NCBI GenBank assembly: GCA_017617065.1
Contig: JAFZWP010000001.1
Location: 62,001 to 126,000, forward strand
Direction: 5' to 3'
DNA from: Bacilli bacterium
GTDB lineage: Bacteria; Bacillota_I; Bacilli_A; ML615J-28; CAG-698
DNA length: 64,000 nt
The position numbers were made by a program, and so were the translations under genes. Below are positions 1 to 47,867 of the stretch, one piece after another; position 1 is the stretch's first letter; the number at the start of each line of letters is the position of its first letter. The notes under the pieces were generated by a model. The model saw only the letters and a list, made by a program, of their open reading frames with translations. It made no database searches and was not told where the DNA came from.

Positions 1-206
1 CGTACTATACAATTATAATCTAGAGTTTGAATAAACCATAACAACATCTTTAATAATTTATTTGAACCCTTTGCTGAAGTTATAATTATATCTAATTCAA
101 AATGTTCGATCGATGAAGTAAGTTCAATCAAACAATCAGATAGCAATTTTAAAATTGTATCTTCTAAATCTGATTTAAGTAAAATTAATTGTTTATTATT
201 CTGCAT
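1..206 (-). CDS. Hypothetical protein, C-terminus beyond window edge
   Basis: An open frame begins with ATG at 206 and runs off the left edge without a stop (about 68 residues visible). It overlaps the end of the glycosyltransferase gene by 11 bp, so it is the next gene in the same leftward operon. The visible part is rich in Leu, Ile and Asp with no recognisable motif. Function unknown. Confidence 0.6.
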   Translation of the reverse strand, partial: MQNNKQLILLKSDLEDTILKLLSDCLIELTSSIEHFELDIIITSAKGSNKLLKMLLWFIQTLDYNCIV

Positions 207-1020
207 ATTTATCCAATAATTGTTGTGTTTTATTTATAATTTGTGTAAAGGCCGATAAACATCTATTTAAATATTGTTTATATTTAATTTTTGTTCCACT
301 TTCATTTTGTTCTTTATAATCGCTATAATAATAATAGTAACTAGCTTTATCTGGAGTTATATAACTACAATCAAAATCATAAAACAAATAATTACTCATA
401 CCATATAAAACTGCATTAAAGAATTCAGGTTTTTCATTTGTATACATCAAAATATTTTTTGAAAATACATAAAACCAGCAATGTGTTATGTCTGTCATTA
501 ATTGAAATCTTTGTTTATTTTGACTATTATAAAAACATATAACTCTATTATCAACTAGTAAAGATTCATCAATAACAATTTCATTTTTTGTATAATTTTT
601 ATCCACAACTTCTTCTTTTTCATGATAAGTTAGTAATAAACCCTTACAAACACTACTCTTATCCTCCATAATAGCTTTCATTGAGATTTCATAAAAATCA
701 TAATCTAAACTATCATCTGATTCAGGAAAAGCAAAATAATCACCCGTGGCATTATCTAGTGCTTTTTGAAAAGAAGGTAATATTCCTAAATTTATATCAT
801 TATCAATAACTTTAAAAGGTTTATTAAAGACAAACTTTTTGCTTTTTAAATCATCTAATATTTGAAGTGTTGTTTCATCTGTAGAGCAATCATTTACCAA
901 AATAACTTCTATATTTGGATAAGTTTGATTTGAAATACTATCTAAAAATCGGTATAATTTATTACCCGAATTATATATACTTGTACAGATCGATAATAAA
1001 GGAAAATCAGTATTATTCAA
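196..1020 (-). CDS. Family 2 glycosyltransferase
   Basis: 274 residues. The N-terminus matches the GT-A fold of family 2 glycosyltransferases: a first strand reading LLSICTSIYN, then a nucleotide-sugar segment with VILVNDCSTDE (about residues 35-46), and an acidic metal-binding segment PESDDSLD near residue 100. Such enzymes move a sugar from a nucleotide-sugar to an acceptor in the cytoplasm. The start is TTG at 1020, preceded by GAGG inside a strong hairpin (1027-1060). It closes the radical-SAM operon, so its acceptor could be a product of that island, for example the serine-rich protein at 4996, but that is inference. The family assignment is solid; the substrate is unknown. Confidence 0.85.
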   Translation of the reverse strand: MNNTDFPLLSICTSIYNSGNKLYRFLDSISNQTYPNIEVILVNDCSTDETTLQILDDLKSKKFVFNKPFKVIDNDINLGILPSFQKALDNATGDYFAFPESDDSLDYDFYEISMKAIMEDKSSVCKGLLLTYHEKEEVVDKNYTKNEIVIDESLLVDNRVICFYNSQNKQRFQLMTDITHCWFYVFSKNILMYTNEKPEFFNAVLYGMSNYLFYDFDCSYITPDKASYYYYYSDYKEQNESGTKIKYKQYLNRCLSAFTQIINKTQQLLDKYAE

Positions 1021-1087: not shown

Positions 1088-1942
1088 TTAAGCTCTTTCT
1101 AACCGACCTTCTTTATAATGAACAGTATATTTACTAATGTGTTCATCTGCTGAAAAATCTCCACTTACTGGAATATTATGAATAGTACGAGCACCATGTT
1201 CTGGTTCTACAATAACCATAATTTCTTTACCATCTAAAGTTTCTTTAAATCTATCAGAAATCTTCTTTTGTAAATCTTTATATTTTTCCATTCTTTCAAC
1301 AATCACATCTTCCGATACTTGATCTGGTAATGTAGCAGCTTCTGTACCTGGTCTAGCTGAAAAAGCGTGTGTCCAAAATGCAACTGGAGAAATTTCATCC
1401 AAGAAATTATAAGTATCCATAAATTCCTCTTCGGTTTCACCAGGAAAACCAGGAATAATTTCAATAGTAAATTCAACACCTTTTTCTCTAGCATAATTTA
1501 ATAATTCACGTAATTTAGCTTGTGTATGAGGTCTATGCATACGAGTCAAAGCTGTATCAGAAGCAGATTGAATAGGTACTAAACAAGTTTTTAATAGTCT
1601 TTCTTCTGAACCGATTAAATCCATTAATCTTTTAAATTTATCTTCATCAAATGGATTAACCTGTCCTACCATAAAATAAGTATTAGGAAAATCTTTTAAT
1701 AATCTTTGGCATAAACCAATCAAATCCCCTACTTCTGGATCATTATATTCAATAGAATTAACACCTTCTAATTGTAATAATTTCATACCATGATCTTCAA
1801 TACAAGATTTAACATTGGCATAAATATCTGCATAAGGTTCTGATATAGATGGGCCACGAAATTCACGAACTACACAATAACCACATTTTTGTGAGCAGCC
1901 ATCTTGAATCTTAATATAATTTGTTTTTTTCAAATCTACCAT
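1088..1942 (-). CDS. Radical-SAM methylthiotransferase-like protein lacking the N-terminal domain
   Basis: 284 residues. It closely resembles the core of MiaB/RimO methylthiotransferases: radical-SAM cysteines Cys16, Cys20 and Cys23 in GCSQKCGYC, then IQSASD, MHRPHT, GFPGETEEEF and ARPGTEAA, all family landmarks in order. The last roughly 50 residues (from LDGKEIMVIVE) look like a TRAM-type RNA-binding tail. The family's N-terminal domain, which holds a second iron-sulfur cluster, is absent; a candidate for it is encoded separately at 2606-2947. The start ATG has an AGGAG site, and a GTTCTATTTATAA motif lies at 1974-1987. Methylthiolation of tRNA or protein is likely but the substrate is unknown. 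Confidence 0.85.
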   Translation of the reverse strand: MVDLKKTNYIKIQDGCSQKCGYCVVREFRGPSISEPYADIYANVKSCIEDHGMKLLQLEGVNSIEYNDPEVGDLIGLCQRLLKDFPNTYFMVGQVNPFDEDKFKRLMDLIGSEERLLKTCLVPIQSASDTALTRMHRPHTQAKLRELLNYAREKGVEFTIEIIPGFPGETEEEFMDTYNFLDEISPVAFWTHAFSARPGTEAATLPDQVSEDVIVERMEKYKDLQKKISDRFKETLDGKEIMVIVEPEHGARTIHNIPVSGDFSADEHISKYTVHYKEGRLERA

Positions 1943-1988: not shown

Positions 1989-2606
1989 TTATTTTCTATT
2001 AAATTCAAATTCTCTAGTTAATCGTTTTATAAATTTTTCTAACAAAACAAAGTTCTGATCTAAAGATTCACTTGGTTTTAGCTGTAACATCACTTGTGAA
2101 TCGAATTGCAAATGCGTCGAATTTGAAACTAGAACCAATTGATCTTGAAAAGTAGCCAATACTTTTAAAAACTTACTTAAGCTGCTTATTGATTTAAACC
2201 TAAATGAAATAAACCAATTACTAATTCCATGCCCACAACAAGAATCACAAGTCTGTATTTCATCTGTAATTTGATTTAATTGATCAACATAAGCACGTAT
2301 TGGCTCATCTATCTCATCATAGCTAAAATCTCTATATACATCTACTTCTGTCTGCCGATTTGGATGATTTCTCCAATAATCCCAAATTAAACATTCTGGA
2401 GGTTCATTTGGAATAATAGAATCTGTGTATTCTACTTCTTTAAATATAAGATTTTTATTACCATAAAACCATTTATCATCAAATGAAACGTATAAAATAT
2501 TTTTATAATTAGGTTTTAATGAAGTACATAATCCAGCTGCTATTAAAGCATTGTTTTTATCAAAAACTTGAATATATTTTCCAATATAAGCTTCTGGATT
2601 AGTCAT
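1989..2606 (-). CDS. Hypothetical protein with CDSCCGHG motif, in the split-methylthiotransferase operon
   Basis: 205 residues, no recognised family. The first 60 residues (start YIGKYIQVFDK) look like a small beta-barrel. A CDSCCGHG motif sits near residue 135 and could bind metal. The middle carries DYWRNHPN. The start codon overlaps the stop of the gene before it (TAATG), so the two are translationally coupled. It lies between a separate methylthiotransferase N-domain gene and the radical-SAM gene that probably partners it, so a role in that complex or in substrate delivery is plausible but unproven. Confidence 0.75.
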   Translation of the reverse strand: MTNPEAYIGKYIQVFDKNNALIAAGLCTSLKPNYKNILYVSFDDKWFYGNKNLIFKEVEYTDSIIPNEPPECLIWDYWRNHPNRQTEVDVYRDFSYDEIDEPIRAYVDQLNQITDEIQTCDSCCGHGISNWFISFRFKSISSLSKFLKVLATFQDQLVLVSNSTHLQFDSQVMLQLKPSESLDQNFVLLEKFIKRLTREFEFNRK

Positions 2607-2947
2607 TACTTATAGCTCTCTATATTCCACATATCTTTTTTAAATACTAATGTACCTAATTTTTCAAATTTTTTACCAATTATATCATTAATACAGCCTG
2701 TAATAAATATTTTGTAATCAGGATATTTATCTTTTAGCTCTAAAATCCTTTTACGTGATAGCATAGTATGCCATTCTACTACATTACATACCAATACAAT
2801 AACAGTAGGATCAGTTAATTGCCCTTTCATTTTATTAAACATTTTTTCACCATCAGCAATTCCCATAGGACAACCGATAGTATAAATAACCAAATTATTA
2901 TCTTCAAACTGAAATTCTTCAACATACGACTTTAATTTTGTAGACAT
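2606..2947 (-). CDS. Stand-alone methylthiotransferase N-terminal domain
   Basis: 113 residues. The layout is that of the N-terminal domain of MiaB/RimO enzymes (UPF0004): IYTIGCPMG with Cys26, VLVCNVVEW with Cys54 and IFITGCIND with Cys85. These three cysteines hold the auxiliary 4Fe-4S cluster that supplies sulfur. In known enzymes this domain is fused to the radical-SAM core; here it is a separate gene, overlapping the radical-SAM gene at 2932 by 16 bp. It resembles the protein at 3611 along its length (both end near DMWxxxxY). The assignment is by motif and context. Confidence 0.7.
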   Translation of the reverse strand: MSTKLKSYVEEFQFEDNNLVIYTIGCPMGIADGEKMFNKMKGQLTDPTVIVLVCNVVEWHTMLSRKRILELKDKYPDYKIFITGCINDIIGKKFEKLGTLVFKKDMWNIESYK

Positions 2948-3618
2948 TCAATATCCTTTTGTAATTCTTTATATTTATTCATACGGCTTAAAATAACCTT
3001 TTCTGGTATTATATCTGTATACTTTTCTGCTTCTGTGCCTGGTCGATTTGAATATACATGTGCAGTAAAATTTGTTTTAAACTGATTCAAAAAAGCATAA
3101 GTTTCATTAAACATTTCTTCTGTTTCACCGGGAAAACCTACGATTATTTCTGTTTTAATAATTATACCTTTTGTTTTCGCATAAGTAAATATTTTATATA
3201 AAGATTCTTTAGTATAAGGTCTATGCATTACTTTTAAAAGATCATTTGAAACAGATTGAATAGATATAAATAACTCTTTACTAATATTATCTGTTATTTC
3301 TACCAAATCAATCAGTTCACATACTTCTTTTTCATTAAAAGGATTTATATTATCAATAACAAAATTAATATCTCTATATTTATCAGTTAATTTTCTACAT
3401 AAATCAACAAAGTTACCCACTGAATCATGATAATACTCTAATGTATTAACTCCACACAAATCGAAAACTTTACAATCCAATTCTTTTATAAAAAAATCAA
3501 TATCTTTACATATAGCTTCATATGAATACGATTGAGATTTACCGCGTAATTCACGTACTATACAATAACTACAATTTTGCGAACAACCATCTTGAACTTT
3601 AATACTAATTTTATTCAT
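2932..3618 (-). CDS. Radical-SAM methylthiotransferase core, short form
   Basis: 228 residues, a paralogue of the gene at 1088. It has cluster cysteines Cys12, Cys16 and Cys19 in GCSQNCSYC, followed by IQSVSN, MHRPYT, GFPGETEEMF and NRPGTEAE. It ends right after the radical-SAM barrel, so it has neither the N-terminal sulfur-donor domain nor a TRAM tail. It overlaps both neighbours, each of which encodes an isolated N-domain (3611-3967 upstream, 2606-2947 downstream). A complete enzyme therefore probably needs two polypeptides. Substrate unknown. Confidence 0.82.
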   Translation of the reverse strand: MNKISIKVQDGCSQNCSYCIVRELRGKSQSYSYEAICKDIDFFIKELDCKVFDLCGVNTLEYYHDSVGNFVDLCRKLTDKYRDINFVIDNINPFNEKEVCELIDLVEITDNISKELFISIQSVSNDLLKVMHRPYTKESLYKIFTYAKTKGIIIKTEIIVGFPGETEEMFNETYAFLNQFKTNFTAHVYSNRPGTEAEKYTDIIPEKVILSRMNKYKELQKDIECLQN

Positions 3619-3967
3619 AGTTATCTAAATCCCACATATCTTCTTTTTTTATTATTTTACCTAACTTTTCAAATTTATCTTTTACTTTATCATTAATACA
3701 CCCTGTTATAAAAATCTCATGATATGGATATTTTTCTTTTAACTTTCTTATATTTAATATTACATTAGTTTTATATGCTTCAGTAACATTACAAACTAAT
3801 GCAATAATAGTAGGCTTATTTATTATATCTTTTAGTTTATAAAATAATTTAAGCGCATCTGCATTAGCTACTAAACATCCACCGTTATATACAATAAGAT
3901 TATTAGTTGTATATATATCACAAGTAGATTCTGTTTCTATTTCAAGATTCTCATCCTTTAATAGCAT
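3611..3967 (-). CDS. Second stand-alone methylthiotransferase N-terminal domain
   Basis: 118 residues, a paralogue of the protein at 2606. It keeps the three cysteines expected of the UPF0004 domain: Cys31 (NGGCLVAN), Cys59 (ALVCNVTE) and Cys90 (FITGCIND). It overlaps the stop of the upstream radical-SAM gene and the start of the downstream one by a few bases. Expected role: carry the auxiliary iron-sulfur cluster for the radical-SAM protein at 2932. The function is inferred from motif order and position. Confidence 0.68.
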   Translation of the reverse strand: MLLKDENLEIETESTCDIYTTNNLIVYNGGCLVANADALKLFYKLKDIINKPTIIALVCNVTEAYKTNVILNIRKLKEKYPYHEIFITGCINDKVKDKFEKLGKIIKKEDMWDLDNYE

Positions 3968-4974
3968 TATTCTATATTCTCCAAATTTTTAATAAATTTT
4001 TCTATATCACAATAGATACAATGCCTATCATCATTAACATAGCATAAACCATCTACTAGATGACCACAATCTAAATAAACATCTCTAGTGTCATTCCATC
4101 TATCTTCAATATTTATATCTTCTACATATATAGTTAAATTTCTAGACCTCATCTCTGGCTGATGTATAAGATTTTGGACTTTTTGTAATCCATACTTTTT
4201 ATAGAATACTTTTAAAAATTTTAAAAACAAACTACGATCTTCTATAAAAAACTTTTTGGGAAATTGATCTAGTCTTTTTAACATCATAGCTCGGTAATCT
4301 TTAATACCTGTGGCAGTTGGGCAATCTTTTCTTGAAATACTTGGATACCTAAAATCGATTGTCGAATATTCTGTAATAAAATCAAAATAATTTGGATTTT
4401 CTATTAATTTTTCAATGGTATCTTGTGTTAAAATAGTTTGTGTATGAACTTCTACAAATGGAAAATCTTCTTTTAGATTTTTAATATTATTTAACCACAA
4501 TTCTTCTTTTTGTGAATTTCTAAATCTACCTATAGTATCATAGGAAGTGCAAATACGAATACATTGATTTGCATTATAATTTTTTTCAAAAAAACAGGAT
4601 AAGCATTGATATAAATCTATAGGATTATTATATAATAATGCAGTTGCTAGCCAAACTTCTTTAATTTTATTTTCTTCTAATAGCGTATTTAATAAATCAA
4701 ATAATGCAAACCATTCTTTGTTTAATTCTTGTGGAACTTGTCCATCAAACAATTCACCGCCGATTAAACCAACCGCATTGTATTCTTTAAATGTTTCTGG
4801 ATTATTTAATACTTCTATTGTTTTAAGTATACTATTTCGTTTAAAATCTAAAGAAGTAATTCTTTGTGTTCCTTTAAGATAGCAATATTCACATCCATTA
4901 TTACAATCGGGCCATAACTCAAATTGTATGGCCTGTATAGCTTCTCTCGAAGTTGAATCTAATGAATATGAAAT
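3967..4974 (-). CDS. Radical-SAM protein with C-terminal cysteine cluster, apparent ATT start
   Basis: About 335 residues if started at ATT 4974. The radical-SAM motif CNNGCEYC (Cys24, Cys28, Cys31) is followed by LIGGELFD, the SAM-binding GGE. The C-terminus has CGHLVDGLC and CIYC, a probable extra iron-sulfur or zinc site. An AGGAGG site at 4981-4986 is followed in frame by GCT AAA ATT; there is no ATG, GTG or TTG before the radical-SAM motif, and the frame opens only after a TAA at 4987-4989. A TTG near 4752 would remove the catalytic cysteines. It resembles the protein at 7155. Substrate unknown; a peptide-modifying role is possible. Confidence 0.75.
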   Translation of the reverse strand: MSYSLDSTSREAIQAIQFELWPDCNNGCEYCYLKGTQRITSLDFKRNSILKTIEVLNNPETFKEYNAVGLIGGELFDGQVPQELNKEWFALFDLLNTLLEENKIKEVWLATALLYNNPIDLYQCLSCFFEKNYNANQCIRICTSYDTIGRFRNSQKEELWLNNIKNLKEDFPFVEVHTQTILTQDTIEKLIENPNYFDFITEYSTIDFRYPSISRKDCPTATGIKDYRAMMLKRLDQFPKKFFIEDRSLFLKFLKVFYKKYGLQKVQNLIHQPEMRSRNLTIYVEDINIEDRWNDTRDVYLDCGHLVDGLCYVNDDRHCIYCDIEKFIKNLENIE

Positions 4975-4995
4975 TTTAGCCTCCTTTTAGCTATC

Positions 4996-5649
4996 TTATT
5001 CTAAATTCATATATGCAATAAACATAGAAGATGAACAGTTTGAAGAACTTGAACTTGAAGAAGAGCTAGAAGAAGATGAACTTGAGCTAGAAGATGAACT
5101 AGATGAAGATGAACAGCTATATGCATAATTTAAACTCACAGAGCGTTTATTAGCTGCACCCGAAGCATAGCAAGCTGCCAAACTATCAATATACTGTGTA
5201 ATATCTGTAGCTGTTGCAACATTTGTATCAAAATTCATACTAGTTGGTGGTGTAATTGTTCCTTGATTATACCATACAATATTCCAAGCTCCAGTATCTT
5301 CATTATGAAGTATAAGAACTCGCATTGCTAAATATTTATAAGCACAAGACATGAAATTAATAATGCCACGATATGATACAATTTGACTAGCTTTTGCATT
5401 AATACCACAACTTGTCATATAATCATTAAAATCAGTTTCTACAGTAGATTGTGCTACAGCATTACCCCAAGTATCACTAGTTGAAATAACACATTTAGCA
5501 TAAGGTGTACCGGATTCTTTACCAACAGTTCTAGACCAACCAGATTTTAATGACGCATCTAAATTGGTATTATTACCAATATTTCTACATCTTTCTGTCA
5601 TAAAACTCATAACTATTGATTTTAAATCACCATATGTAAGAGTTGCCAT
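4996..5649 (-). CDS. Hypothetical protein with C-terminal polyserine tract flanked by cysteines
   Basis: 217 residues. The first 180 share a layout with the next gene (CRNIGNN versus CCNIGGF; GINAKAS versus GIDARSD), so the two are paralogues. The C-terminus is a Cys, then 24 consecutive serines by my codon count, then Asn-Cys-Ser-Ser-Ser and a short tail. The serine codons are mixed (TCA, TCT, AGT, AGC), which argues for selection on the protein rather than repeat slippage. It sits directly before a radical-SAM gene and in the same operon as a glycosyltransferase. It could be a virion protein or a substrate of the modification enzymes; neither is proven. Confidence 0.75.
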   Translation of the reverse strand: MATLTYGDLKSIVMSFMTERCRNIGNNTNLDASLKSGWSRTVGKESGTPYAKCVISTSDTWGNAVAQSTVETDFNDYMTSCGINAKASQIVSYRGIINFMSCAYKYLAMRVLILHNEDTGAWNIVWYNQGTITPPTSMNFDTNVATATDITQYIDSLAACYASGAANKRSVSLNYAYSCSSSSSSSSSSSSSSSSSSSSSSSSNCSSSMFIAYMNLE

Positions 5650-5664
5650 AATATTTTCTCCGCT

Positions 5665-6303
5665 TTAACTTAAATAACATCTATGATTAACTGGGTTATT
5701 TTCACGATCAATTAAACCATAATTAACACCATCATGAACAATACCTTCACGAACTACTTTTCTAATACCCGCGTCTGATATAAAACCAGGTACATTATTA
5801 GGTTGAATAGGATTTACAGTATATTTAGGTGTACATGTACCTGCTATATATTTTGTACCTTGAAAAACACCTGGATTTGTTTCAAGTGTATTATAAATTT
5901 GTCTTCTACTATAAATAGGTTTAAGATGATAAGACATAAACTGTTGATATAAACCAATAGCTTGACCCATATTTTCCATTTGAATTACAGTATCTGATCT
6001 AGCATCAATTCCCGCCGCTGCTAAGAAAGTAGTCCATTCTGAATTAACTGTGGCTTCTGTTACAGTAGAAATCAAATTACTTGGATTTGCATAATATACT
6101 GAACTTACAATAGTACCACCAGAAGCACCAGATGGTCTACTACGAGTTTGCGTATACACTGCAACTTGACTTTGACCAGAACGTAATCTGGTTGGTACAT
6201 TAGAAGCAAATCCTCCAATATTACAGCATACATTTTTTAACGCTGCCAAGCATCTTGTTGAAAAATCTGCCCAAGTTATAACAGAATTACTAGCTATTGA
6301 CAT
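5665..6303 (-). CDS. Hypothetical protein, paralogue of the polyserine protein
   Basis: 212 residues. The N-terminal 130 residues align with the protein at 4996 (WADFSTRC, CCNIGG, a LRSG segment, AAAGIDARSD), but the C-terminus is different: no serine tract, instead a Pro/Asn-rich stretch (NPIQPNNVPG) and a final HDGVNYGLIDR segment. It is not a known family to me. The size, gene pairing and lack of catalytic motifs would suit a structural protein. Confidence 0.75.
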   Translation of the reverse strand: MSIASNSVITWADFSTRCLAALKNVCCNIGGFASNVPTRLRSGQSQVAVYTQTRSRPSGASGGTIVSSVYYANPSNLISTVTEATVNSEWTTFLAAAGIDARSDTVIQMENMGQAIGLYQQFMSYHLKPIYSRRQIYNTLETNPGVFQGTKYIAGTCTPKYTVNPIQPNNVPGFISDAGIRKVVREGIVHDGVNYGLIDRENNPVNHRCYLS

Positions 6304-6308
6304 TAATA

Positions 6309-7067
6309 TTATTCCTCTGGTTTATTATCTATTACAGTTTTTACGGCTTTTTCCATAAGGGCTGTACCAATCATATCCATAATAGTATTTGTAAATACAA
6401 ATTTTTCAGCAATTTGACCTAAATAACCTAATGAATTCAAAACGATCTTTTTAGTTTCCCAAATTGCTGGATCTTTTACTGATGAAAGGATTTTTGCTAA
6501 AATAGTTACATCCATAGAATTAAATAAGTATACATATATATTTTCCATAGCAACAGCATTTGGATTATTTTCTACTGCTTCTACCAAGTTGCAAGTTTTA
6601 AGCATACTTACATAATATTCAGCAGTTTTATATGTAACATCTTTAATTTCTTGTTCAAGATCATCAAATATATCCAAAAATTCTACTTCATCATTTAAGA
6701 AAACTTGTTCGTGTTCAAAATATGCTTCTTCAAAAGTATTATAACCTTTAATTAAACAAAAAATATTCATTAAAAATACAGGATTTTTTAATTCCGGTGT
6801 TTTTAATGCACAACCCAAAGCTTCTTTACGGTAGTCATAAGATAAATTTTTAATTAAAATAGTTAAAGTATGGCCAGAATCAATTTCATATTGCCATAAC
6901 TGTTTTAAACTTTCTAAAAATACTTCTTTATCTATAGTATCAATAAATTTTACAGTTATTGAAGCTTGTTCATTTTCTTCTTTAGCGAAGTTTTCTTTAA
7001 ATACTTCAATAGCTTTTGCTACTTGTTCTAAATTTTCAATTTCGAAAGTTCTGATTTTTTTATCCAT
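6309..7067 (-). CDS. Hypothetical acidic protein
   Basis: 252 residues, strongly acidic and probably helical, with no motif I recognise. Its ribosome site (AAGGAG) lies just after a GTTCTATATAAATA motif, and it is followed 5 bp later by the gene pair at 5665 and 4996, so it leads that transcription unit. The length and the lack of Cys clusters set it apart from its radical-SAM neighbours. It could be an assembly chaperone or a partner of the paralogous pair; this is speculative. Confidence 0.7.
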   Translation of the reverse strand: MDKKIRTFEIENLEQVAKAIEVFKENFAKEENEQASITVKFIDTIDKEVFLESLKQLWQYEIDSGHTLTILIKNLSYDYRKEALGCALKTPELKNPVFLMNIFCLIKGYNTFEEAYFEHEQVFLNDEVEFLDIFDDLEQEIKDVTYKTAEYYVSMLKTCNLVEAVENNPNAVAMENIYVYLFNSMDVTILAKILSSVKDPAIWETKKIVLNSLGYLGQIAEKFVFTNTIMDMIGTALMEKAVKTVIDNKPEE

Positions 7068-7083
7068 TTTAGACTACTCCTTA

Positions 7084-7099
7084 TTATTTATATAGAACT
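7084..7099 (-). promoter_or_regulatory. Candidate phage promoter (GTTCTATATAAATA motif)
   Basis: The minus strand reads GAGTTCTATATAAATAAT, 8-30 bp upstream of the AAGGAG site of the gene at 7067. It contains TATAAATA, the T4 late-promoter core, within the window's own GTTCTAT motif. Confidence 0.5.
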
Positions 7100-7154
7100 C
7101 ACAAATACTGGCTTTTTTAGTACTTTTATATTACCATTTTACCAAACCAAAGTT

Positions 7155-8105
7155 CTAATTTGTTTTATATTTTATTAGTTTTTGTATTTCACAAGGGTAA
7201 CATCTATCACTATCCGCAAAACACCTTGTGAAATTTACCGAATGGCCACATTCTCCTAGTTTAGATGAACAATATACAAAATCTTTTTCTTTTTTATTAT
7301 ATTCATATAGTAATTTAGGCTGTTTTAAAGCGATATTATCACCGTAGCTCTTTAAATATCCAGGCATAAGATTATCTATATGCAATAAAGTTTCAAATAC
7401 TGTCGATTTTTTAGGCATTTGTGGAGCTTTATCATCATCTAAACGAATATAAGGAATTGTATTAATATCTACTCTAAAGTACTCTATCCAATCTTTTATA
7501 GTAAAAGTATCCTTATCTTGCTCTTTTAGATATTCAAGCAAATAATCAGCACCAAATTTATCTTCGCATATACGCTTACAAGCTTCATTTGTTAATACAG
7601 TATTTACTACTACTTTTAAATCTTTATAGGTATCTGTAATATATTTTAAATTATGATAGAATAATAATTCATGCTCTTTACTTGTAAATCTACCTAATAT
7701 ATCATAGGAAGTAGCAAATTTTAGTCTGGGTAATAGTCCATTTGCTTCAAATAATGCTAAAAACCAATCTAATAAACCAATATCTTTATATAAAAGGTTT
7801 GTATTGATATATAGCAAATCTATTTTATTTAAACATAGTTTATCTTTAATTTCTTTTATTAAAGCAATAAATTCTTTTTTAACATCTTCATTAACAATAT
7901 CAAAGATTTCACCACCTACTAATAAGATATGATTACCTTCTTTAAATTGTTTATTTAAGAAAGATTTGCATTTTTCTATTGAATCTATTTGCTGGTTTAG
8001 AGTAAGTATTTTATCATCTATTTTGCGTTCATGATTGCGCTGGTGACAAAATGTACAATTATTGCCACAGTTATTCCATAAAAGAAATTCATAAACGCTT
8101 TGCAT
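7155..8105 (-). CDS. Radical-SAM protein with C-terminal cysteine cluster
   Basis: 316 residues. The radical-SAM cysteines are at 13, 17 and 20 (CGNNCTFC), with the GGE SAM-binding motif in LLVGGEIFD. The C-terminus has CGHSVNFTRC and CYPC, matching the arrangement in the protein at 3967, so the two are paralogues that bracket the putative substrate pair (4996, 5665). It overlaps the start codon of its neighbour (stop/start TAATG), so it is coupled to the phosphatase at 8105. The C-terminal cysteines resemble a SPASM or twitch-like extra cluster, common in peptide-modifying radical-SAM enzymes, but the family cannot be fixed by eye. Confidence 0.8.
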   Translation of the reverse strand: MQSVYEFLLWNNCGNNCTFCHQRNHERKIDDKILTLNQQIDSIEKCKSFLNKQFKEGNHILLVGGEIFDIVNEDVKKEFIALIKEIKDKLCLNKIDLLYINTNLLYKDIGLLDWFLALFEANGLLPRLKFATSYDILGRFTSKEHELLFYHNLKYITDTYKDLKVVVNTVLTNEACKRICEDKFGADYLLEYLKEQDKDTFTIKDWIEYFRVDINTIPYIRLDDDKAPQMPKKSTVFETLLHIDNLMPGYLKSYGDNIALKQPKLLYEYNKKEKDFVYCSSKLGECGHSVNFTRCFADSDRCYPCEIQKLIKYKTN

Positions 8106-12752: not shown

Positions 12753-13661
12753 ATGCGAAATTTATTAACATTAATGGATTATTCTACTGAAACAATTGAA
12801 AAATTAATTATAGATGCTCATGCTATAAAAGAAACAAAACAAACATCAGCTTGGTCTAAATGTAGTTATCCTTATATATTAGAAGGTAAAAATATCTTGT
12901 TATATTTTGAAAAACCTTCTTTACGTACACATTTAACATTTGAAATGGCTGTGCGTAATTTAGGTGGTAATCCTATATATTTTGATAATTCAAAGCAGAT
13001 GGGAAGAGAACCAGATGTTGATATAGCAAAGAATATAGCTAGATGGGGTTTAGATGGTATAGTAGCGAGAGTATTTAGTCAAACTACATTAGAAACATTT
13101 ATGAAATATACTAATGTACCAGTTATTAATGCACTGTCGGATTTGTATCATCCATGTCAAGCTTTAGCTGATTATATGACTATGAAAGAACTTACCGGTA
13201 AAAATTGGAAAGATTTAAAACTTGCTTATATAGGTGAGCCTAATAATGTATCTAATTCATTAATGATTATGGCAGCTAAATTAGGTACTACATTTACTAT
13301 TTGTTGTCCAGCGAGTATGAGTCCGGATTATTTGTTATTAAAGCAATGCCAAAAGTTAAATCCTAATATTAAAGTATCTTGTTTTATTGAAGACATTAAA
13401 GATTTTGATGTAATATATGGTGATACTTGGTATTCAATGGGTGATGAATATACGCCAAATAAAGCTTTAATTTTACAAGCTTATCAAATAAATAAAGCTT
13501 TATTGACTGCTTTAAATATTCCTTATGTATTACATTGTTTACCTTGTCATAGAGATCAAGAAATTACAGATGAAGTGATACAAGAACATCCAGAAATCTA
13601 TCAATTGGCTGAAAATAGATTATGGACAGAAATGTCAGTATTACATTATTTATTCTACTAA
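12753..13661 (+). CDS. argF: Ornithine carbamoyltransferase
   Basis: 302 residues, full family length. The carbamoyl-phosphate motif is SLRT (56-59; the usual form is STRT), then HPCQALAD (133-140), the ornithine-binding SMG loop (TWYSMG, 225-230) and HCLP with Cys263 (261-264). The SMG loop and HCLP identify ornithine rather than aspartate carbamoyltransferase. It makes citrulline from ornithine and carbamoyl phosphate, or runs in reverse in arginine catabolism with ATP gain through carbamate kinase. No other arginine gene is in the window, so it is an auxiliary metabolic gene, transcribed alone, with strong AAAAGGAG and a terminator at 13664-13690. Confidence 0.93.
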   Translation: MRNLLTLMDYSTETIEKLIIDAHAIKETKQTSAWSKCSYPYILEGKNILLYFEKPSLRTHLTFEMAVRNLGGNPIYFDNSKQMGREPDVDIAKNIARWGLDGIVARVFSQTTLETFMKYTNVPVINALSDLYHPCQALADYMTMKELTGKNWKDLKLAYIGEPNNVSNSLMIMAAKLGTTFTICCPASMSPDYLLLKQCQKLNPNIKVSCFIEDIKDFDVIYGDTWYSMGDEYTPNKALILQAYQINKALLTALNIPYVLHCLPCHRDQEITDEVIQEHPEIYQLAENRLWTEMSVLHYLFY

Positions 13662-41658: not shown

Positions 41659-42366
41659 TTATAAAGCACATAAAGTTTCTTTGATTTTATTTATATGTTT
41701 ACTTATTTTATTATCTATTACATCACCCATGAGATAAGTTAAAATAGAATCACGTTTACCTAATTTAACTTTATTTGTTTCAATAAAATTAAGAAATTCT
41801 TTAATTGTATAAATTCCTTTCGTTTTATTATTACATATTACTTTTATATTATGTCTATTAATCAGAATTTGCATAGGATATCCAAATCCATTCCAAAAAA
41901 CACGATCAAAAGTCAATATAAAACTACCTTCTTCGTTGCTATAAATCAAATCAGGTCTATTTCCATTTACATTACCTTTTAAAGCATTTAATACAGCTTC
42001 TGTACTGATAGCTTTATACTTTAAACTAATTTCATCTTTATTGTGATCATATTCTTTAGCCAACTGCATTAACATTTCTATCTTTGTTTTAGGTAAATTG
42101 TTCAAATCATCATTAATTCTACGGGTTTCTGGATTATCCAAAGCTTTGTATTGAATATAGCTATTCAAATACTCATTTAATTTATTCATATCCCATTTAC
42201 CTACATTATAATAGGTATAAGCTACACATTCCATAGCTTCTTTTATAGTCTTTTTCTTAAATGAATATCTTACACGATTAATCATAAAGCTAGCGTGATA
42301 TAAATCGCACGTAACATCCCAACAAATATGTTTAGGTAAATTATATTTTCTATTTTTCATAATCAA
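41659..42366 (-). CDS. Hypothetical basic protein
   Basis: 235 residues, lysine-rich. It begins with KYNLPKHICWDVTCDLYHASF, with a strand-rich DNA-binding look (ILINRHNIKVICNNKTKG), but no named family. Promoters at 42387-42415 and about 42435-42478. Confidence 0.65.
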   Translation of the reverse strand: MIMKNRKYNLPKHICWDVTCDLYHASFMINRVRYSFKKKTIKEAMECVAYTYYNVGKWDMNKLNEYLNSYIQYKALDNPETRRINDDLNNLPKTKIEMLMQLAKEYDHNKDEISLKYKAISTEAVLNALKGNVNGNRPDLIYSNEEGSFILTFDRVFWNGFGYPMQILINRHNIKVICNNKTKGIYTIKEFLNFIETNKVKLGKRDSILTYLMGDVIDNKISKHINKIKETLCAL

Positions 42367-42386
42367 ACTCCTTGGTTATAATATTA

Positions 42387-42415
42387 TTTATAACGTATTA
42401 CCCCTGAAAAGTAAA
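42387..42415 (-). promoter_or_regulatory. Host-like promoter for the 42366 gene
   Basis: Minus strand: TTTACT (42415-42410), 17-bp spacer, TATAAA (42392-42387). A second possible promoter (TTTACG, 17 bp, TAAAAT) lies about 60 bp upstream, directly after the terminator of the HNH gene. Confidence 0.7.
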
Positions 42416-42480
42416 GCCGATTTTTTGCTATTTTTCTAATTTGCTGCTATTTTATCCGGTAAATATCCTATCGTAAAACC

Positions 42481-42512
42481 AAAAAAAGCTTAAGCATCTC
42501 TACCTAAGCTTT
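42481..42512 (-). terminator. Terminator of the HNH gene at 42539
   Basis: Stem AAAGCTTA/TAAGCTTT with an 11-nt loop and TTTTTTT on the minus strand. Confidence 0.75.
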
Positions 42513-42515
42513 TAT

Positions 42516-42537
42516 TTACTATATAAATTAAATAGTT
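42516..42537. repeat. AT-rich inverted repeat, copy 2
   Basis: TTACTATATAAATTAAATAG plus TT, one mismatch from the copy at 40511. It lies at the end of the HNH gene, before its terminator. Confidence 0.5.
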
Positions 42538-42538
42538 A

Positions 42539-43135
42539 TTAATTATTAAAGCCGTGCTCAGTTAAATAATCATTTAAGAATGTATTAAAAGCTTTATCAT
42601 CACTTTTAAATCTTTCATAAACAATATAATAATCTTTTCCATAATACATTTTTATAAACGCTTTATACATTGCAATATTATATGGATATACCCGACATAA
42701 TAACGCATGTAATAATAAATGCTCTTCAAACTTAATCACTACTAGATTACTTTCATTATCTAATCCACCCAATGTTCTAGGTAATATATGATGAACTTCT
42801 CTATACCTTTCATCAGTCTTTTGTAATCCTTTTATCTTTATATCTCCTCTAACCTTAAAATCATTAACCGCTTTTATATATATATTATACCATTTTTTAT
42901 CCATTTCATCTATACCGTGCAACTTTACACTTTTATTCCACTGATTTGTCTGATTATAATCCTTTACATTAAATCTGGTATATACATCACTATAATCACT
43001 CTTACATTTAATAGTACGATTGCTGTCTAAGTTTATCCCGGCTTTCCAAGCTCGTCTATATTTTTTACTTAGCTCTTTAGCTTGAGCTTCCTCTTCTTTC
43101 AATTTAGCACGCATCTCTTTAAAACTTAATTTCAT
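42539..43135 (-). CDS. HNH homing endonuclease
   Basis: 198 residues. The HNH core is HHILPRTLGGLDNESNLVVI with a following EEHLLLHALL helix, a form common in phage free-standing endonucleases. The N-terminal 90 residues are basic. The gene and the next endonuclease gene share a related upstream sequence. Confidence 0.88.
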   Translation of the reverse strand: MKLSFKEMRAKLKEEEAQAKELSKKYRRAWKAGINLDSNRTIKCKSDYSDVYTRFNVKDYNQTNQWNKSVKLHGIDEMDKKWYNIYIKAVNDFKVRGDIKIKGLQKTDERYREVHHILPRTLGGLDNESNLVVIKFEEHLLLHALLCRVYPYNIAMYKAFIKMYYGKDYYIVYERFKSDDKAFNTFLNDYLTEHGFNN

Positions 43136-43200
43136 TCTATATACCTCTAGATATATATTACTATATAAGATAAAATAATCAAAATAAAACTAAAAAATTA

Positions 43201-43246
43201 AAAAAATTATTCCAAACTTCAATAAACTATTTAAAAGATATAGTTA
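43201..43246. repeat. Direct repeat flanking the HNH-AP2 gene, copy 1
   Basis: About 45 bp beginning AAAAAATTATTCCAAACTT and ending AAAAGATATAGTTATT, nearly repeated at 44013-44060 (few mismatches). The two copies bracket the endonuclease gene at 43244-43942. Copy 1 can also fold CAATAACTAT/ATAGTTTATTG. Confidence 0.75.
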
Positions 43247-43942
43247 TTGATTATTTATGCTACCAATTTCACCTTTATATTCTTGTATAGGATAATCTAA
43301 TCCATTATCTATAATATATTTATTACGAGCTTCTAATGCTTCTTTCTGTGTCTTATAATGTCCTAAAGCTACTTCTTTATAATTTATTACAATTCTAGCT
43401 AACCATCGCTTTCTTCGTTTTCCTGTAGTTATATAACGAATTCCGCTATAACCACTGGTATTTAATTTAGTCATTCTTCTATTTATATTTTGTTGTGTAT
43501 AAGTAGCCCATCTACAATTACTAGGTTCATAATTACCATTAACATCAATTCTATCGATAGTTAAATCTTCTTTATATCCATTATTTATCGCCCAATTATA
43601 AAAATTAGTAAAGTTATTTTTCCATTCATTACATATTATTATACCACGTTCACCATAATTTTTGTAACTAGAATGTTTTGGATTATAACATCTAGTTTTC
43701 ATATCATGCCAAATACTATATAATCGTTTATTAAAAATCGTTCGTTTTGGTGATGCACATATTCTACAACCTCTACTTCTACCTGTTATAAGTCTATATA
43801 AAGGTATATCTAATTCTTTACCACATTCACATTTACAATGTACACTATTTTCAGGTTTTTTTATCAAACTATATCCTACAACTGTCCATTTACCAAAACA
43901 TTTTCCTATATAATCTTCGGGTTTATATTTTATATTTGACAT
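43244..43942 (-). CDS. HNH homing endonuclease with AP2 domain
   Basis: 232 residues from ATG 43942 (a longer frame lacks support). An N-terminal zinc ribbon (CKCECG ... CRIC) is followed by an HNH core in TIDRIDVNGNYEPSNCRWA and a C-terminal AP2 domain (SGIRY ... WLARIVINYKEVALGHYKT). This domain order is typical of mobile phage endonucleases. It is flanked by direct repeats and lies just upstream of the major capsid gene, in the opposite direction. Confidence 0.9.
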   Translation of the reverse strand: MSNIKYKPEDYIGKCFGKWTVVGYSLIKKPENSVHCKCECGKELDIPLYRLITGRSRGCRICASPKRTIFNKRLYSIWHDMKTRCYNPKHSSYKNYGERGIIICNEWKNNFTNFYNWAINNGYKEDLTIDRIDVNGNYEPSNCRWATYTQQNINRRMTKLNTSGYSGIRYITTGKRRKRWLARIVINYKEVALGHYKTQKEALEARNKYIIDNGLDYPIQEYKGEIGSINNQ

Positions 43943-44012
43943 TTTGTATCTCTTATTTCTACTTATAATAATAGAATATACTGCTACCAATCAAGAAAAT
44001 AAAACAATTATA

Positions 44013-44060
44013 AAAAAATTATTCCAAACTTGCATTAACTGTTCAAAAGATATAGTTCTA
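44013..44060. repeat. Direct repeat flanking the HNH-AP2 gene, copy 2
   Basis: Starts AAAAAAATTATTCCAAACTT and ends AAAAGATATAGTTCT; the pair of copy 1. It ends within the phage promoter motif at 44054. Confidence 0.75.
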
Positions 44061-44070
44061 TAAAATATAA
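44054..44070 (+). promoter_or_regulatory. Candidate phage promoter upstream of the capsid gene
   Basis: AGTTCTATAAAATATAA. The 15 bases GTTCTATAAAATATA are identical to the minus-strand motif at 23426-23440 before the fibre block. Confidence 0.6.
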
Positions 44071-44071
44071 A

Positions 44072-44185
44072 CAAGATAACTATTCTGGAATGTGTAGATG
44101 AATACCTATAACCAACAATACTCGGTCTAATCCCTTATCGCAATATTAGTCCCGATTATCATAAATAAAGATAGGTATTTTTTTA
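44072..44185 (+). ncRNA. Structured RNA or attenuator upstream of the capsid gene
   Basis: After the promoter motif, a 9-bp outer stem AATACCTAT/ATAGGTATT (44101-44109 with 44171-44179) is followed by a T-run. Inside are TCGG/CCGA and CTAAT/ATTAG pairings (44122-44155). This is either a short RNA of about 115 nt or a capsid-mRNA leader with a terminator. The capsid ATG lies 118 bp downstream with no clear second promoter. Confidence 0.5.
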
Positions 44186-44302
44186 TTACTATACAAATAA
44201 AACAGTATATCAAATTAACTTTACGCTAACTATAACCAAAATTAATTTCCATGTAAAGTTATATAACGATATACACATACATATATATAAAGAATAATAA
44301 CA

Positions 44303-45871
44303 ATGTCTATATTAAAACAAATCGAAACAAAAAACACTTTAACAGAAGCTAAACGCGCTGTTAAAATGAACAAAGGTATCGCACACGCTGCTCAAGTATT
44401 AGCAGAATCTAACTTAGGTGCTCGCTGCCCAAACTTAGTTAAAGGCTTGGAATCAGAATCTAAAGAAGCTAAATACGCAGCTGCTACTTTGGTTCAATTA
44501 TTAGAAAATACAGCTGAATACGTTGCCAAAACAGATGGCCGTGATATCTTACACGAAGATGCAGTCAATGCTACAGCTAACACTATGTTAACTCCAGGTG
44601 TCTCAACTTTGACTCCTCAAGTCGTTGATATCGTAAATGTGTTCTATCCACAGATGGTAGCTAACTATATTGCTGACATTCAAGCATTGGATCGTCAATC
44701 TGGCCAAATCTTCACTATCAAAACACGTTATAGTGAAACAGCAGCTGGTGTAGAAGCAAACGACATCGTATTCGAAAAAGCTACTGATGGTACATATTCT
44801 TCAGAAGGTGTTATTTCTTATGAAGCAGCATCTATCGAAGAAAGTGGTTCATCTGCAACTGAAGCTACAATCACATTGTCTCCAGTATCTATCTTGACAT
44901 CAGCAGAAGCATCAGTTATCGTACGTGCAGGTTCATTTATTGTATCTGTTGGCGGTAAAGAAGTTGCTCGTGACTATGGTTTAGATACAAAATTGGATGG
45001 CGTTGGTGGTACATATGTAGTTATCGGTAAAGGTATTTCTGGTACTGTAGATGCACAAACAGGTGTTGCTGAATTGACAATTGATTTAGCAATGTTTGAA
45101 AACGGCACAACATTCAGTGCAGTTGCTTCTTATGATACAGAAATCGATGAAGATTTGATCCACAAGATTCAATTCGATATTCCAAATCAACCAATCTTAG
45201 CTAAAGAACACCCATTAATGTCATCTTACTCAGTTGCAGCTGGCTTAGTCATGAATGCACACTTAGCAGTTGACACAGATGAATTGATCACTAACCAATT
45301 AGCTGGTACAATTCGTTGGGAACGTGACTTGGCATTAGTTAAAGCAGTATCTGATGCAGCTAAATTACAATCTGCATTGACATTCGACTGCTCAGCTAAC
45401 GGTACTAACTTGACATTAGCACAACGCTATAGCTCATATACAACTACAATTTCTTCAGCTCGTGGCTTGATCCAAGAAATTGCTGGTCGTGGTACTGTAG
45501 ATTTCATCATCTGCTCAGCTTCTCAAGGCTTAGTTGTTATTGAACAAATCGAAGGCTTTAAAGCTGCTCCAGAAGCAAAGAAACCAATTGGTCCATATTT
45601 AGCAGGTACATTACGTGATGGCACAATCAATGTTATTGCTGTTCCTTACACAAAAACATTAGCTGCTGATCAAGTAGTATTTGGTTTCAAGGGCTTCCAA
45701 TTAGGTGATTCTTCAGTTATCTTGGCTGAATGGGTTCCTTTATACTTAACACCAACATTCCAAGCTCCAAACTTAAGAAACCACAAAGGTGCATTAAGTT
45801 TCTATGATTTGTTCATCAACAAACCAGAATACTTGGCAAAGGGTGTTATTTCTAACTTCAACGTTGCTTAA
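44303..45871 (+). CDS. Major capsid protein, T4 gp23-like
   Basis: 522 residues. The segment TPQVVDIVNVFYPQMVANYI, then IQALDRQSGQIFTIKTRYSE, matches the entry to the HK97-fold core of gp23-type capsid proteins. The first about 70 residues are a charged helical part likely cleaved during maturation. Residues about 175-285 are an inserted beta-rich, Ig-like domain. Codon use is GC-richer at third positions (GCT, GGT, AAC, ATC) than neighbours, as for a very highly expressed gene. The terminator is at 45903-45936. Confidence 0.9.
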   Translation: MSILKQIETKNTLTEAKRAVKMNKGIAHAAQVLAESNLGARCPNLVKGLESESKEAKYAAATLVQLLENTAEYVAKTDGRDILHEDAVNATANTMLTPGVSTLTPQVVDIVNVFYPQMVANYIADIQALDRQSGQIFTIKTRYSETAAGVEANDIVFEKATDGTYSSEGVISYEAASIEESGSSATEATITLSPVSILTSAEASVIVRAGSFIVSVGGKEVARDYGLDTKLDGVGGTYVVIGKGISGTVDAQTGVAELTIDLAMFENGTTFSAVASYDTEIDEDLIHKIQFDIPNQPILAKEHPLMSSYSVAAGLVMNAHLAVDTDELITNQLAGTIRWERDLALVKAVSDAAKLQSALTFDCSANGTNLTLAQRYSSYTTTISSARGLIQEIAGRGTVDFIICSASQGLVVIEQIEGFKAAPEAKKPIGPYLAGTLRDGTINVIAVPYTKTLAADQVVFGFKGFQLGDSSVILAEWVPLYLTPTFQAPNLRNHKGALSFYDLFINKPEYLAKGVISNFNVA

Positions 45872-45902
45872 TTAGTTACGTTATCTTAGAAAGCCTATAT
45901 AT

Positions 45903-45936
45903 AATCCCCTGTCCTTAGTGATAGGGGATTTTTATT
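45903..45936 (+). terminator. Terminator of the capsid gene
   Basis: Stem AATCCCCT/AGGGGATT with a 12-nt loop and TTTTATTT. Confidence 0.9.
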
Positions 45937-45949
45937 TGAAATGCAGCGT

Positions 45950-45962
45950 AGTTCTATAGTAT
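45950..45962 (+). promoter_or_regulatory. Candidate phage promoter abutting a start codon
   Basis: AGTTCTATAGTAT runs directly into the ATG at 45963. If it is a -10-type element the mRNA would start at or just after the ATG. Confidence 0.5.
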
Positions 45963-46667
45963 ATGAGTAAATTTAGAGATCTTGTTGAATCTATTATAGT
46001 AGGTGAAGAAGCACCATTTTGGACATTTGGTGAAGATACATTAGAAGAAGGCTTAGTACCATCCAATGCTCCTATAGGTAAACTAGTCAATAAATTAGAT
46101 AGCTTTATTAAAGATGATAAACCTACGCTAGAAGTTAAATTATATAGTACCGGTAGAGATATTAAGAAAAAAGATGAAATAGTCTCATATTATCTTACTA
46201 TTAAAGAAACTAAGACATATAAATTCCATGGTTGTAAAATAGAAGTACCTGTTACTATAAGATGCCGCTGCTCAACACACGATAAGCCAGAACAAGAAAT
46301 TAATCCACCTAAAGATATTAATGTATATATACCTAACCCTTCCTTCCCTAAAACATTTAATAATCGTGGCGGTATTATGTGTTATGACTTAAGCGAACCA
46401 AATTTAGATAGTTATATTGCAAACGGTTATGATGATATATTACTAGCATTAAAAGATAAAAGAAACTATATAGAAATGCCATTAAATGCTATTAAAGGCG
46501 ATGTTTTTAAAGATATTATCACTTTACCAGCGCAAGAAGTAGTATTTAAATATAAATTCTTAAATCGTGATACTTTATATTTCTCTAAATGGTTTCAAGA
46601 TTGGTTAAAGCAAGTACGAGCTTTATATAGCAATACCTTTCAACAAACTAATACATTTTCCAGATAA
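45963..46667 (+). CDS. Hypothetical protein downstream of the capsid gene
   Basis: 234 residues. No ribosome site precedes the ATG; only the promoter motif does. It contains a CRCSTHDKPEQE segment and a Pro-rich loop (YIPNPSFPKTF). The location after the capsid gene suggests a structural or assembly role, but there is no match to a known head protein. Confidence 0.65.
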   Translation: MSKFRDLVESIIVGEEAPFWTFGEDTLEEGLVPSNAPIGKLVNKLDSFIKDDKPTLEVKLYSTGRDIKKKDEIVSYYLTIKETKTYKFHGCKIEVPVTIRCRCSTHDKPEQEINPPKDINVYIPNPSFPKTFNNRGGIMCYDLSEPNLDSYIANGYDDILLALKDKRNYIEMPLNAIKGDVFKDIITLPAQEVVFKYKFLNRDTLYFSKWFQDWLKQVRALYSNTFQQTNTFSR

Positions 46668-46695
46668 ATAAAAAAACGTGCTGCTGAAGCACGTT
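46668..46695 (-). terminator. Terminator of the 370-nt RNA
   Basis: Stem AACGTGCT/AGCACGTT (46675-46695), 5-nt loop, then TTTTTTTATTT on the minus strand. Confidence 0.9.
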
Positions 46696-47037
46696 ATAGT
46701 TAACCCCAGAAAACCTTTATTTCAAGGCCCTTTTACATCCGCTAGGTTGTATGGAAGGCGGTTCATACTCCGATTCTGATATATTACTTAGGGAAAAACC
46801 TCATTAACCAGATACAATTGTTAATGAGGCCCTTTTACTTTCCATTTCGTATAGTCAGCACACTATACCGCGATTCTGATATATCGCAAGCAATATATCT
46901 TTATCAGCTCTCTCTACCCGGCTGATCTCAGACAAAACCCTATTTCTAGGTAAAAAGTTCAGGTTTCCCTTACTTGTGTCACCAAATGCAACCAGGCGTA
47001 GTTCCTGGACTTTTACGCACCAGCGCTGTCTTTTTGT
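46668..47037 (-). ncRNA. Candidate large structured RNA, about 370 nt
   Basis: Promoter at 47044-47072 (TTTACA, 17 bp, TATAAT) and a perfect intrinsic terminator at 46668-46695. No convincing ORF on either strand. Many helices: AGACA/TGTCT closing the 5' domain; CCTCATTAAC/GTTAATGAGG; GTATAG/CTATAC; GATATAT/ATATATC; ATCAGC/GCTGAT; two GNRA-type hairpins (AGG-GAAA-CCT and CCTA-GAAA-TAGG). A module with ATATATCAGAATCG, a GTATnG hairpin and GTAAAAGGGCCT occurs twice in tandem. No known class recognised. Confidence 0.72.
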
Positions 47038-47043
47038 AACTCT

Positions 47044-47072
47044 ATTATAATAGAACTCTATATAAATGTAAA
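47044..47072 (-). promoter_or_regulatory. Host-like promoter of the 370-nt RNA
   Basis: Minus strand: TTTACA (47072-47067), 17-bp spacer containing GTTCTAT, TATAAT (47049-47044). It combines both promoter motifs of the window. Confidence 0.85.
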
Positions 47073-47082
47073 ACCAATTATA

Positions 47083-47106
47083 AACTATTTAAATTATATA
47101 GTTTAT
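47083..47106. repeat. AT-rich inverted repeat between the two large RNAs
   Basis: AAACTAT/ATAGTTT with a 9-nt AT loop, like the hairpins at 40511, 42516 and 43201-43246. It may mark the 3' end of the upstream RNA. Confidence 0.45.
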
Positions 47107-47666: not shown

Positions 47667-47672
47667 GTTGCT

Positions 47673-47701
47673 ATTATAGATATATTATTTGCAAATGTAA
47701 A
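47673..47701 (-). promoter_or_regulatory. Host-like promoter of the 560-nt RNA
   Basis: Minus strand: TTTACA (47701-47696), 17-bp spacer, TATAAT (47678-47673). Confidence 0.85.
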
Positions 47702-47709
47702 GCAAATAA

Positions 47710-47856
47710 TTAGCTGATTTGGACAATTTGTCCGTAACCAGCAATAGATGATTCCTTTAATTGATGATATGCACGATTAGCTTCATCCCAGCTGAAATAT
47801 CTTCCCGGCATTTCTTCACCATTAAAGATAATCTTATACATAGTACAATTAGCCAT
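47710..47856 (-). CDS. 48-residue hypothetical protein
   Basis: ATG 47856 has AAAGGAG 8 bp before it. The protein has a strand pair (YKIIFNGEEMPGRYF) and a helix (SWDEANRAYHQL), ending YGQIVQIS, a compact beta-beta-alpha-beta pattern seen in other tiny proteins here. It ends next to the promoter of the 560-nt RNA. Confidence 0.65.
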   Translation of the reverse strand: MANCTMYKIIFNGEEMPGRYFSWDEANRAYHQLKESSIAGYGQIVQIS

Positions 47857-47867
47857 AATATACTCCT

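Follow-up and report, generated by a model that had tools for sequence, protein, structure and literature searches.

Phages that carry many radical S-adenosylmethionine (rSAM) genes have been described before. According to the available parts of the two accounts, the T4-like Campylobacter phages CP220 and CPt10 contain 11-12 rSAM genes in clusters, which were proposed to aid the infected host at low oxygen (PMC2853527), while pelagimyophages hold rSAM cassettes together with glycosyltransferases among their tail-fibre genes, in a host recognition cluster (PMC7029224). No partner protein for these enzymes is named in those parts of either account. Here, we describe a locus in a stretch of 64,000 nucleotides (the window), which comprises bases 62001-126000 of contig C6 (JAFZWP010000001.1; 245,208 bp) from the genome bin of a Bacilli bacterium (GCA_017617065.1). 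Genes are named by their first position in the window; all genes named in a preliminary description of this DNA are present, on the minus strand. The locus joins an array of related rSAM genes, including 3967 and 7155, to gene 4996, whose product ends in a Ser/Cys tail and a short hydrophobic motif, and to gene 6309. We read it, with a probability of roughly 0.6, as a modification module of a jumbo phage with the tail of the 4996 protein as the substrate, a role assigned to the tail because the tailed-protein and rSAM genes are linked.

C6 resembles CP220 and CPt10 in being a T4-like phage with clustered rSAM genes. However, the rSAM sequences of CP220 are only weakly related to those of C6, a search of 100 kb of CP220 found no homologue of the tailed protein, and the rSAM genes of CP220 and CPt10 are accompanied by an amidinotransferase. 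The pelagimyophages, compared by description and not by sequence, differ from C6 in that the available part of their account names no Ser/Cys-tailed partner (PMC7029224). A further comparison is offered by the isolated jumbo Pseudomonas phage pPa_SNUABM_DT01, which has six annotated rSAM genes near structural genes and one match to the hidden Markov model (HMM) of the C6 family (E=9.5e-24), whereas the tailed-protein family was not found in its whole genome; its rSAM run is possibly an analogous system. Putative 2-oxoglutarate-Fe(II) oxygenases and a cupin-like gene lie close to that run (L038, 8430-17412). Phages with multiple rSAM genes were already known, and it is the conserved tailed partner beside the array that is new with respect to the open literature, in which no description of such a module was found.

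Relatives were gathered from IMG/VR with two rSAM DNA patterns, the first based on the C-terminal CYxDSDxCxxCD and the second on the rSAM core motif. This rSAM family occurs in 14 other virus records, and in 13 of these a 6309-like gene, the tailed-protein gene or genes and the rSAM array stand together, the exception being a fragment of 16 kb. The hallmark of an rSAM maturation system, a maturase gene beside its cognate precursor gene with both conserved jointly, is therefore found in 13/14 records, and the conservation of gene order in related phages, which the preliminary description had named as a check on its proposal and whose lack would have counted as a refutation, is borne out. The order in the 13 records is a 6309-like gene, one or two genes of the tailed-protein family and the rSAM genes, mostly on a single strand; in G154 the rSAM genes are divergent from the other two. 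A tailed copy, with a Ser/Cys run and an end close to FIAYMxL, is present in all 13 relatives. The rSAM gene of one clade (clade A, the 7155 type) directly precedes the 6309-like gene in C6, G156, G158 and G155, and the module is duplicated in G153, with four tailed-protein genes. At L066 2267-9224 (IMGVR_UViG_3300010049_000011), one phage has the module in duplicate, with two 6309-like genes and four tailed ones.

Homologues of 4996 and 6309 adjoin the rSAM genes in the loci found with the first pattern, and a profile of the tailed protein was positive in 9 of 12 whole virus records; the three negative ones are fragments of 11-16 kb. The second pattern added four further records of 38 kb to 314 kb, all four with the module, while about 53 of about 64 new core-motif loci, which are without this rSAM family and are mostly short stretches, contained no homologue of 4996 or 6309. 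Searches by other routes returned little: tblastn with 4996, 5665 and one close relative found nothing in 50,697 phage records, nor did back-translated scans of IMG/VR, and of six direct rSAM queries five were without a match and one had a single weak match. A strict pattern of the tail found only L024 in IMG/VR; a match in Vibrio breoganii was non-coding and was discarded as chance.

The 4996 protein was previously stated to end in Cys-Ser(24)-Asn-Cys. This run is present, but the real end is NCSSS followed by MFIAYMNLE, and the part conserved throughout the family is this SSS-MFIAYMNLE terminus. Among the 314 predicted genes of C6 only 4996 has a Ser/Cys run of at least seven residues, and the tailed proteins are the only proteins with such runs in the regions examined. 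Measured in 17 tailed proteins, the tail consists almost purely of Ser and Cys, has a length of 10-35 residues with 0-8 Cys and is followed by approximately xFIAYMxL, with SYIVYMMI, AFIVYMDI, GFIIYLDLN and IFIGFLKL as variants in further records. The sulfatase context C/S-x-P/A-x-R, in which anaerobic sulfatase-maturating enzymes oxidise Cys or Ser to formylglycine, does not occur in the Ser/Cys tails. AGY triplets make up 34% of the Ser codons in the tails and 39% in the bodies of these 17 proteins, the rest being TCN, and this mixture indicates that the tail is kept at the protein level and is not the product of simple trinucleotide slippage. A tandem-repeat finder reported an imperfect 33-bp repeat at 5045-5114.

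An AlphaFold2 model of the 4996 protein, of moderate confidence (mean predicted local distance difference test score, pLDDT, 73.7), has residues 1-178 folded and the tail disordered, and the domain found no fold match in PDB or among the viral models of BFVD. The tail profile also hit poly-Ser stretches in PDB chains and in the host relative G111, which were rejected as low-complexity only. The N-terminal domains of the relatives' proteins are about 15-35% identical to that of 4996. Longer N-terminal regions precede the tail domain in the fusion proteins of G150 (640 residues in total) and G164 (518 in total), which suggests that this domain can ride on larger, adhesin-like proteins; the N-terminal repeats of G150 resemble BspA-type leucine-rich repeats by eye, with no Pfam hit. 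The neighbouring gene 5665 encodes a tail-less protein. Its paralogy with 4996, as claimed earlier, is by sequence real but distant, with 22% identity over 156 residues (pairwise blastp, E=2e-6) and consistent family alignments. Since second, tail-less genes of this family occur in G154, G159, G163, G165 and G166 in addition to C6, the arrangement is recurrent.

The two related rSAM proteins said to bracket 4996, 5665 and 6309 are present, but they are only two of ten paralogues in the phage, located at C6 positions 45553, 46512, 47455, 48414, 51020, 54064, 57549, 60610, 65967 and 69155. As listed, with a TTG start at 4752, the 3967 protein is without CxxxCxxC; its frame extends upstream to an ATT at 4974 behind AAAGGAGG, and the extended protein contains CNNGCEYC, which completes the motif. 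No ATG, GTG or TTG lies in frame upstream of the rSAM motif, and the ATT, which has a strong Shine-Dalgarno sequence before it, is apparently the start. CxxxCxxC is kept in 45/45 aligned sequences (in 3967 only from the ATT start), as expected of the radical SAM superfamily, whose members carry this motif in a TIM-barrel-like core. In a tree of these 45 proteins the clades A, B, C and D are separate and each is spread across phages, with 3967 in a small, less certain group; clade-A orthologues are 36-63% identical in most relatives. The C-terminal motif CGH...(C)YxDSDxCxxC has four Cys in clade B, three or four in clades A and C and none in clade D. As clade D keeps most of YxDSD...D(I/V) after loss of the metal-site Cys (e.g. 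L011 14064-14981), the YxDSD loop probably does more than bind metal. The extra cluster previously proposed for the C-terminus is plausible for the members with three or four Cys, a number compatible with an Fe-S cluster (a Twitch-type single auxiliary cluster), but also with zinc.

The AlphaFold2 model of 7155 is confident (pLDDT 91.7). In VIA-align its best matches are all modifiers of peptides or proteins: anSME (Z 15.9, root-mean-square deviation 3.4, 264 aligned residues), ChlB (15.4), SuiB (15.0), SkfB (14.9) and CteB (14.8), followed at lower rank by viperin (13.6), MoaA (13.5) and the sugar enzyme DesII (13.5). The score of anSME is within about 1 of the other maturases, and the top ranks are too close for formylglycine, thioether and epimerase chemistry to be separated by fold. 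The top Foldseek match is EpeE (9e-6), and a ten-sequence profile of the family picks out EpeE/YydG, a peptide epimerase (E=8e-10). It is probable, on this evidence, that the enzymes of the family modify peptides or proteins.

With the SPASM/Twitch maturases (anSME, SuiB, SkfB, CteB, ChlB) the family shares an rSAM core with a C-terminal extension, the 7155 model aligning over most of its length, and a Ser/Cys-containing protein is encoded beside the C6 enzymes. Unlike these maturases, the family has three or four Cys and a His (CGH...CxxC), or none of these Cys in clade D, instead of seven Cys, is only about 12-14% identical to them, and is phage-borne with many paralogues per genome. The EpeE/YydG epipeptide system provides the top match of the C6 family by both sequence profile and Foldseek, but the sequence similarity covers the core only, and the C6 partner is a Ser/Cys-tailed protein of about 217 residues instead of a small precursor peptide.

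C6 itself, although binned with a bacterial genome, is the complete genome of a jumbo phage. Its ends share an overlap of 141 bp, giving a circle of 245,067 bp, and it encodes baseplate and tail genes as well as a major head protein of the gp23 type (window 44303-45871, phrog_138 match 4e-25), by which it is classed as T4-like. The tailed-protein family was found in 0/149 relatives of the organism of the bin (with the low-complexity match in G111 discounted) and in none of 391 other genomes of its phylum; C6 is therefore a phage genome, and its interpretation as a genomic island of the host was rejected. The bin (G000) is 1.73 Mb in size, so that the phage makes up about 14% of its bases. The motif TATAAATA, which we take to be the T4 late box, is found 10-80 nt before genes on C6 16 times, compared to an average of 7.7 for its anagrams; this count is near the top of 55 anagrams and is not unique. 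A late-promoter signal on C6 is, judged from these counts, weak. The module has a tail fibre gene upstream in G150, phage tail proteins and a protein with a head-fibre domain as neighbours in G156, phage tail proteins in G151 and G154, and the major head protein in G158. Because of the late-type promoter and these tail and head neighbours, the 4996 protein may belong to the virion, and we slightly favour a location of the modified product there.

Taken together, the module would be a phage system for the post-translational modification of its own late, probably virion, protein. In the proposed mechanism, the 4996 protein would be the substrate, with the disordered Ser/Cys tail as the modified segment on a folded N-terminal domain and the conserved hydrophobic FIAYMxL end as a handle for recognition or anchoring. 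Several members of a single rSAM family, which comprises clades A-D and has ten copies in C6, would act on Ser and/or Cys by H-atom abstraction, the candidate chemistries being oxidation of Ser or Cys to formylglycine, thioether cross-links of Cys and epimerisation to D-residues. The 6309 protein may serve as a partner or chaperone, and in some phages the tail could be completed by accessory carbamoyltransferases or pyridoxal phosphate (PLP)-type enzymes. An extended version, in which the tail is rebuilt stepwise by at least four different rSAM enzymes (with carbamoyltransferase or PLP-type enzymes) into a surface appendage, a dense non-standard polypeptide on the virion for adsorption or for evading host recognition, is conceivable, although rather doubtful.

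Several observations weigh against the tail as the substrate. A conserved neighbourhood shows shared function and not that the tail is acted on, tail-less paralogues persist in 6/14 phages, and the module could lie in a host-recognition island, by analogy with the rSAM cassettes of pelagimyophages as presented in the available part of their account (PMC7029224). On the side of the enzymes, the seven-Cys SPASM pattern is absent from the C-termini of the family, Pfam SPASM matches neither 3967 nor 7155, and the CGH...CxxC motif, lost in clade D, could be a zinc site. Furthermore, a 45-sequence profile run against PDB no longer prefers EpeE and finds only viperins, with a low score. A leader-binding RRE domain was not among the general Pfam, PHROGs and NCBIfam matches, no dedicated RRE search having been made, and the rSAM core begins at the N-terminus.

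Alternatively, the rSAM enzymes could modify sugars or nucleotide-sugars, the products of which would be displayed on virions or on the surface of the host, with the Ser tail as a glycan acceptor or as part of a neighbouring adhesin. In C6, RmlB (above its NCBIfam cut-off), two DegT aminotransferases, two O-carbamoyltransferases and two family-2 glycosyltransferases (GT2) share the minus-strand run with the rSAM genes and a B12-binding-like rSAM gene; the sugar and rSAM genes interleave there and partly also in G158. The combination of rSAM cassettes and glycosyltransferases in the pelagimyophage host recognition cluster, as far as the available description goes (PMC7029224), and the presence of DesII among the fold matches point in the same direction. 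However, near the module GT2 and DegT homologues each occur in 1/13 relatives (GT2 in G158) and RmlB in 0/13, compared to 13/13 for the tailed-protein gene, and the closest folds are peptide-modifying enzymes, which makes a sugar-directed function unlikely. Glycosylation as the core function was rejected on the same ground, the glycosyltransferase not being conserved beside the module. Of the genes that had been suggested to join the system, the glycosyltransferase and the methylthiotransferase-like genes exist, but the latter too have a homologue near the module in only one relative (G164). The earlier proposal that the rSAM enzymes act on the polyserine protein keeps its basis in the linkage in 13/14 records and in the peptide/protein-modifier fold, without these genes as a part of the core.

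Less likely still, the tailed protein could be a flexible adhesin or assembly factor with an unmodified Ser/Cys stretch, the rSAM enzymes acting on other, simultaneously produced virion proteins. Poly-Ser stretches can act as simple linkers, and the tail-less paralogues are stable, but all 13 relatives have a tailed copy next to their rSAM genes, with no other Ser/Cys-run protein nearby. That the rSAM genes are auxiliary metabolic genes which support the infected host at low oxygen, as proposed for the 11-12 rSAM genes in the available part of the CP220/CPt10 account (PMC2853527), and which have no connection with the tailed protein, is highly improbable given their strict linkage and order with the tailed-protein and 6309 genes and the different gene set of CP220, apparent from its weak rSAM similarity and the lack of a tailed-protein homologue in 100 kb of its genome.

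Around the proposed modification module, accessory genes vary between phages (Table 1). O-carbamoyltransferases of the GdmN/TobZ/NodU type are present in C6, G150, G153, G157 and G158, and a PLP-transferase-like family of 335 residues, assigned by eye with no Pfam or PDB match, is present in G151, G154, G155, G159, G163 and G166. The two never occur together in the stretches examined and perhaps mark two subtypes of the module. The 335-residue family, within or near the rSAM module, resembles a fold-type-I PLP enzyme, yet seems to be without the PLP lysine. The phage also encodes an ornithine carbamoyltransferase (window 12753-13661; E=3e-58 to solved enzymes of this type), so that one genome holds this enzyme and two O-carbamoyltransferases, and the supply of carbamoyl phosphate could be shaped by the former. 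The four methylthiotransferase-like genes 1088, 2932, 2606 and 3611 all score below the NCBIfam cut-offs and, as split chains with no TRAM match, are not MiaB/RimO enzymes with UPF0004, rSAM and TRAM in one chain. Two tail-like proteins encoded directly next to the distal end of the rSAM/sugar run (contig 41830-45040; L011 1830-3119 and 3121-5040) have near-identical C-terminal Hint/intein-like domains (CLTGDTLVTM...).

Table 1 Coordinates of the features discussed (window positions unless a locus is given)
Position	Strand	Feature
7155..8105	-	rSAM enzyme, clade A, 316 aa; CxxxCxxC core and C-terminal CGH...CxxC; shared more widely than any other module member
7085..7092	-	TATAAATA, box resembling a T4 late promoter, 25 nt upstream of the start codon of 6309
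6309..7067	-	Helical protein of unknown function; phmmer/HMM homologue beside the tailed-protein genes in 13/13 relatives
5665..6303	-	Tail-less paralogue of 4996
4996..5649	-	Proposed substrate: domain of ~180 aa without known fold, Ser/Cys tail, conserved C-terminus
5026..5118	-	Ser/Cys tail SC-S24-NC-SSS of the 4996 protein
4999..5025	-	C-terminal motif MFIAYMNLE of 4996; family consensus roughly xFIAYMxL
3967..4974	-	rSAM protein of 335 aa with an ATT start; candidate modifier of the tail
3611..3967	-	N-terminal, UPF0004-like half of a methylthiotransferase-like enzyme encoded in two parts; outside the conserved core
2932..3618	-	MiaB/RimO-family rSAM half, pairs with 3611; outside the conserved core
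2606..2947	-	Second UPF0004-like half
1088..1942	-	Second MiaB/RimO-family rSAM half, pairs with 2606
196..1020	-	Family-2 glycosyltransferase; starts the sugar/rSAM run extending outside the window (contig 45553-61530)
L065 7198-8202		335-aa family member
L067 10263-11303		335-aa family member
L068 6987-7994		335-aa family member
L072 3764-4777		335-aa family member
L148		335-aa family member
L151		335-aa family member

Since CP220 and CPt10 in 2010, phages with many rSAM genes have been a curiosity without an explanation. In one large lineage of uncultured phages, the array now comes with a conserved and testable candidate substrate that has a clear tail segment and a putative recognition motif. 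If the proposed function is true, viruses would perform chemistry on their own virion proteins that is like that of ribosomally synthesised and post-translationally modified peptides, and each of these phages would offer research on Ser/Cys-rich peptides a natural series of related enzymes.

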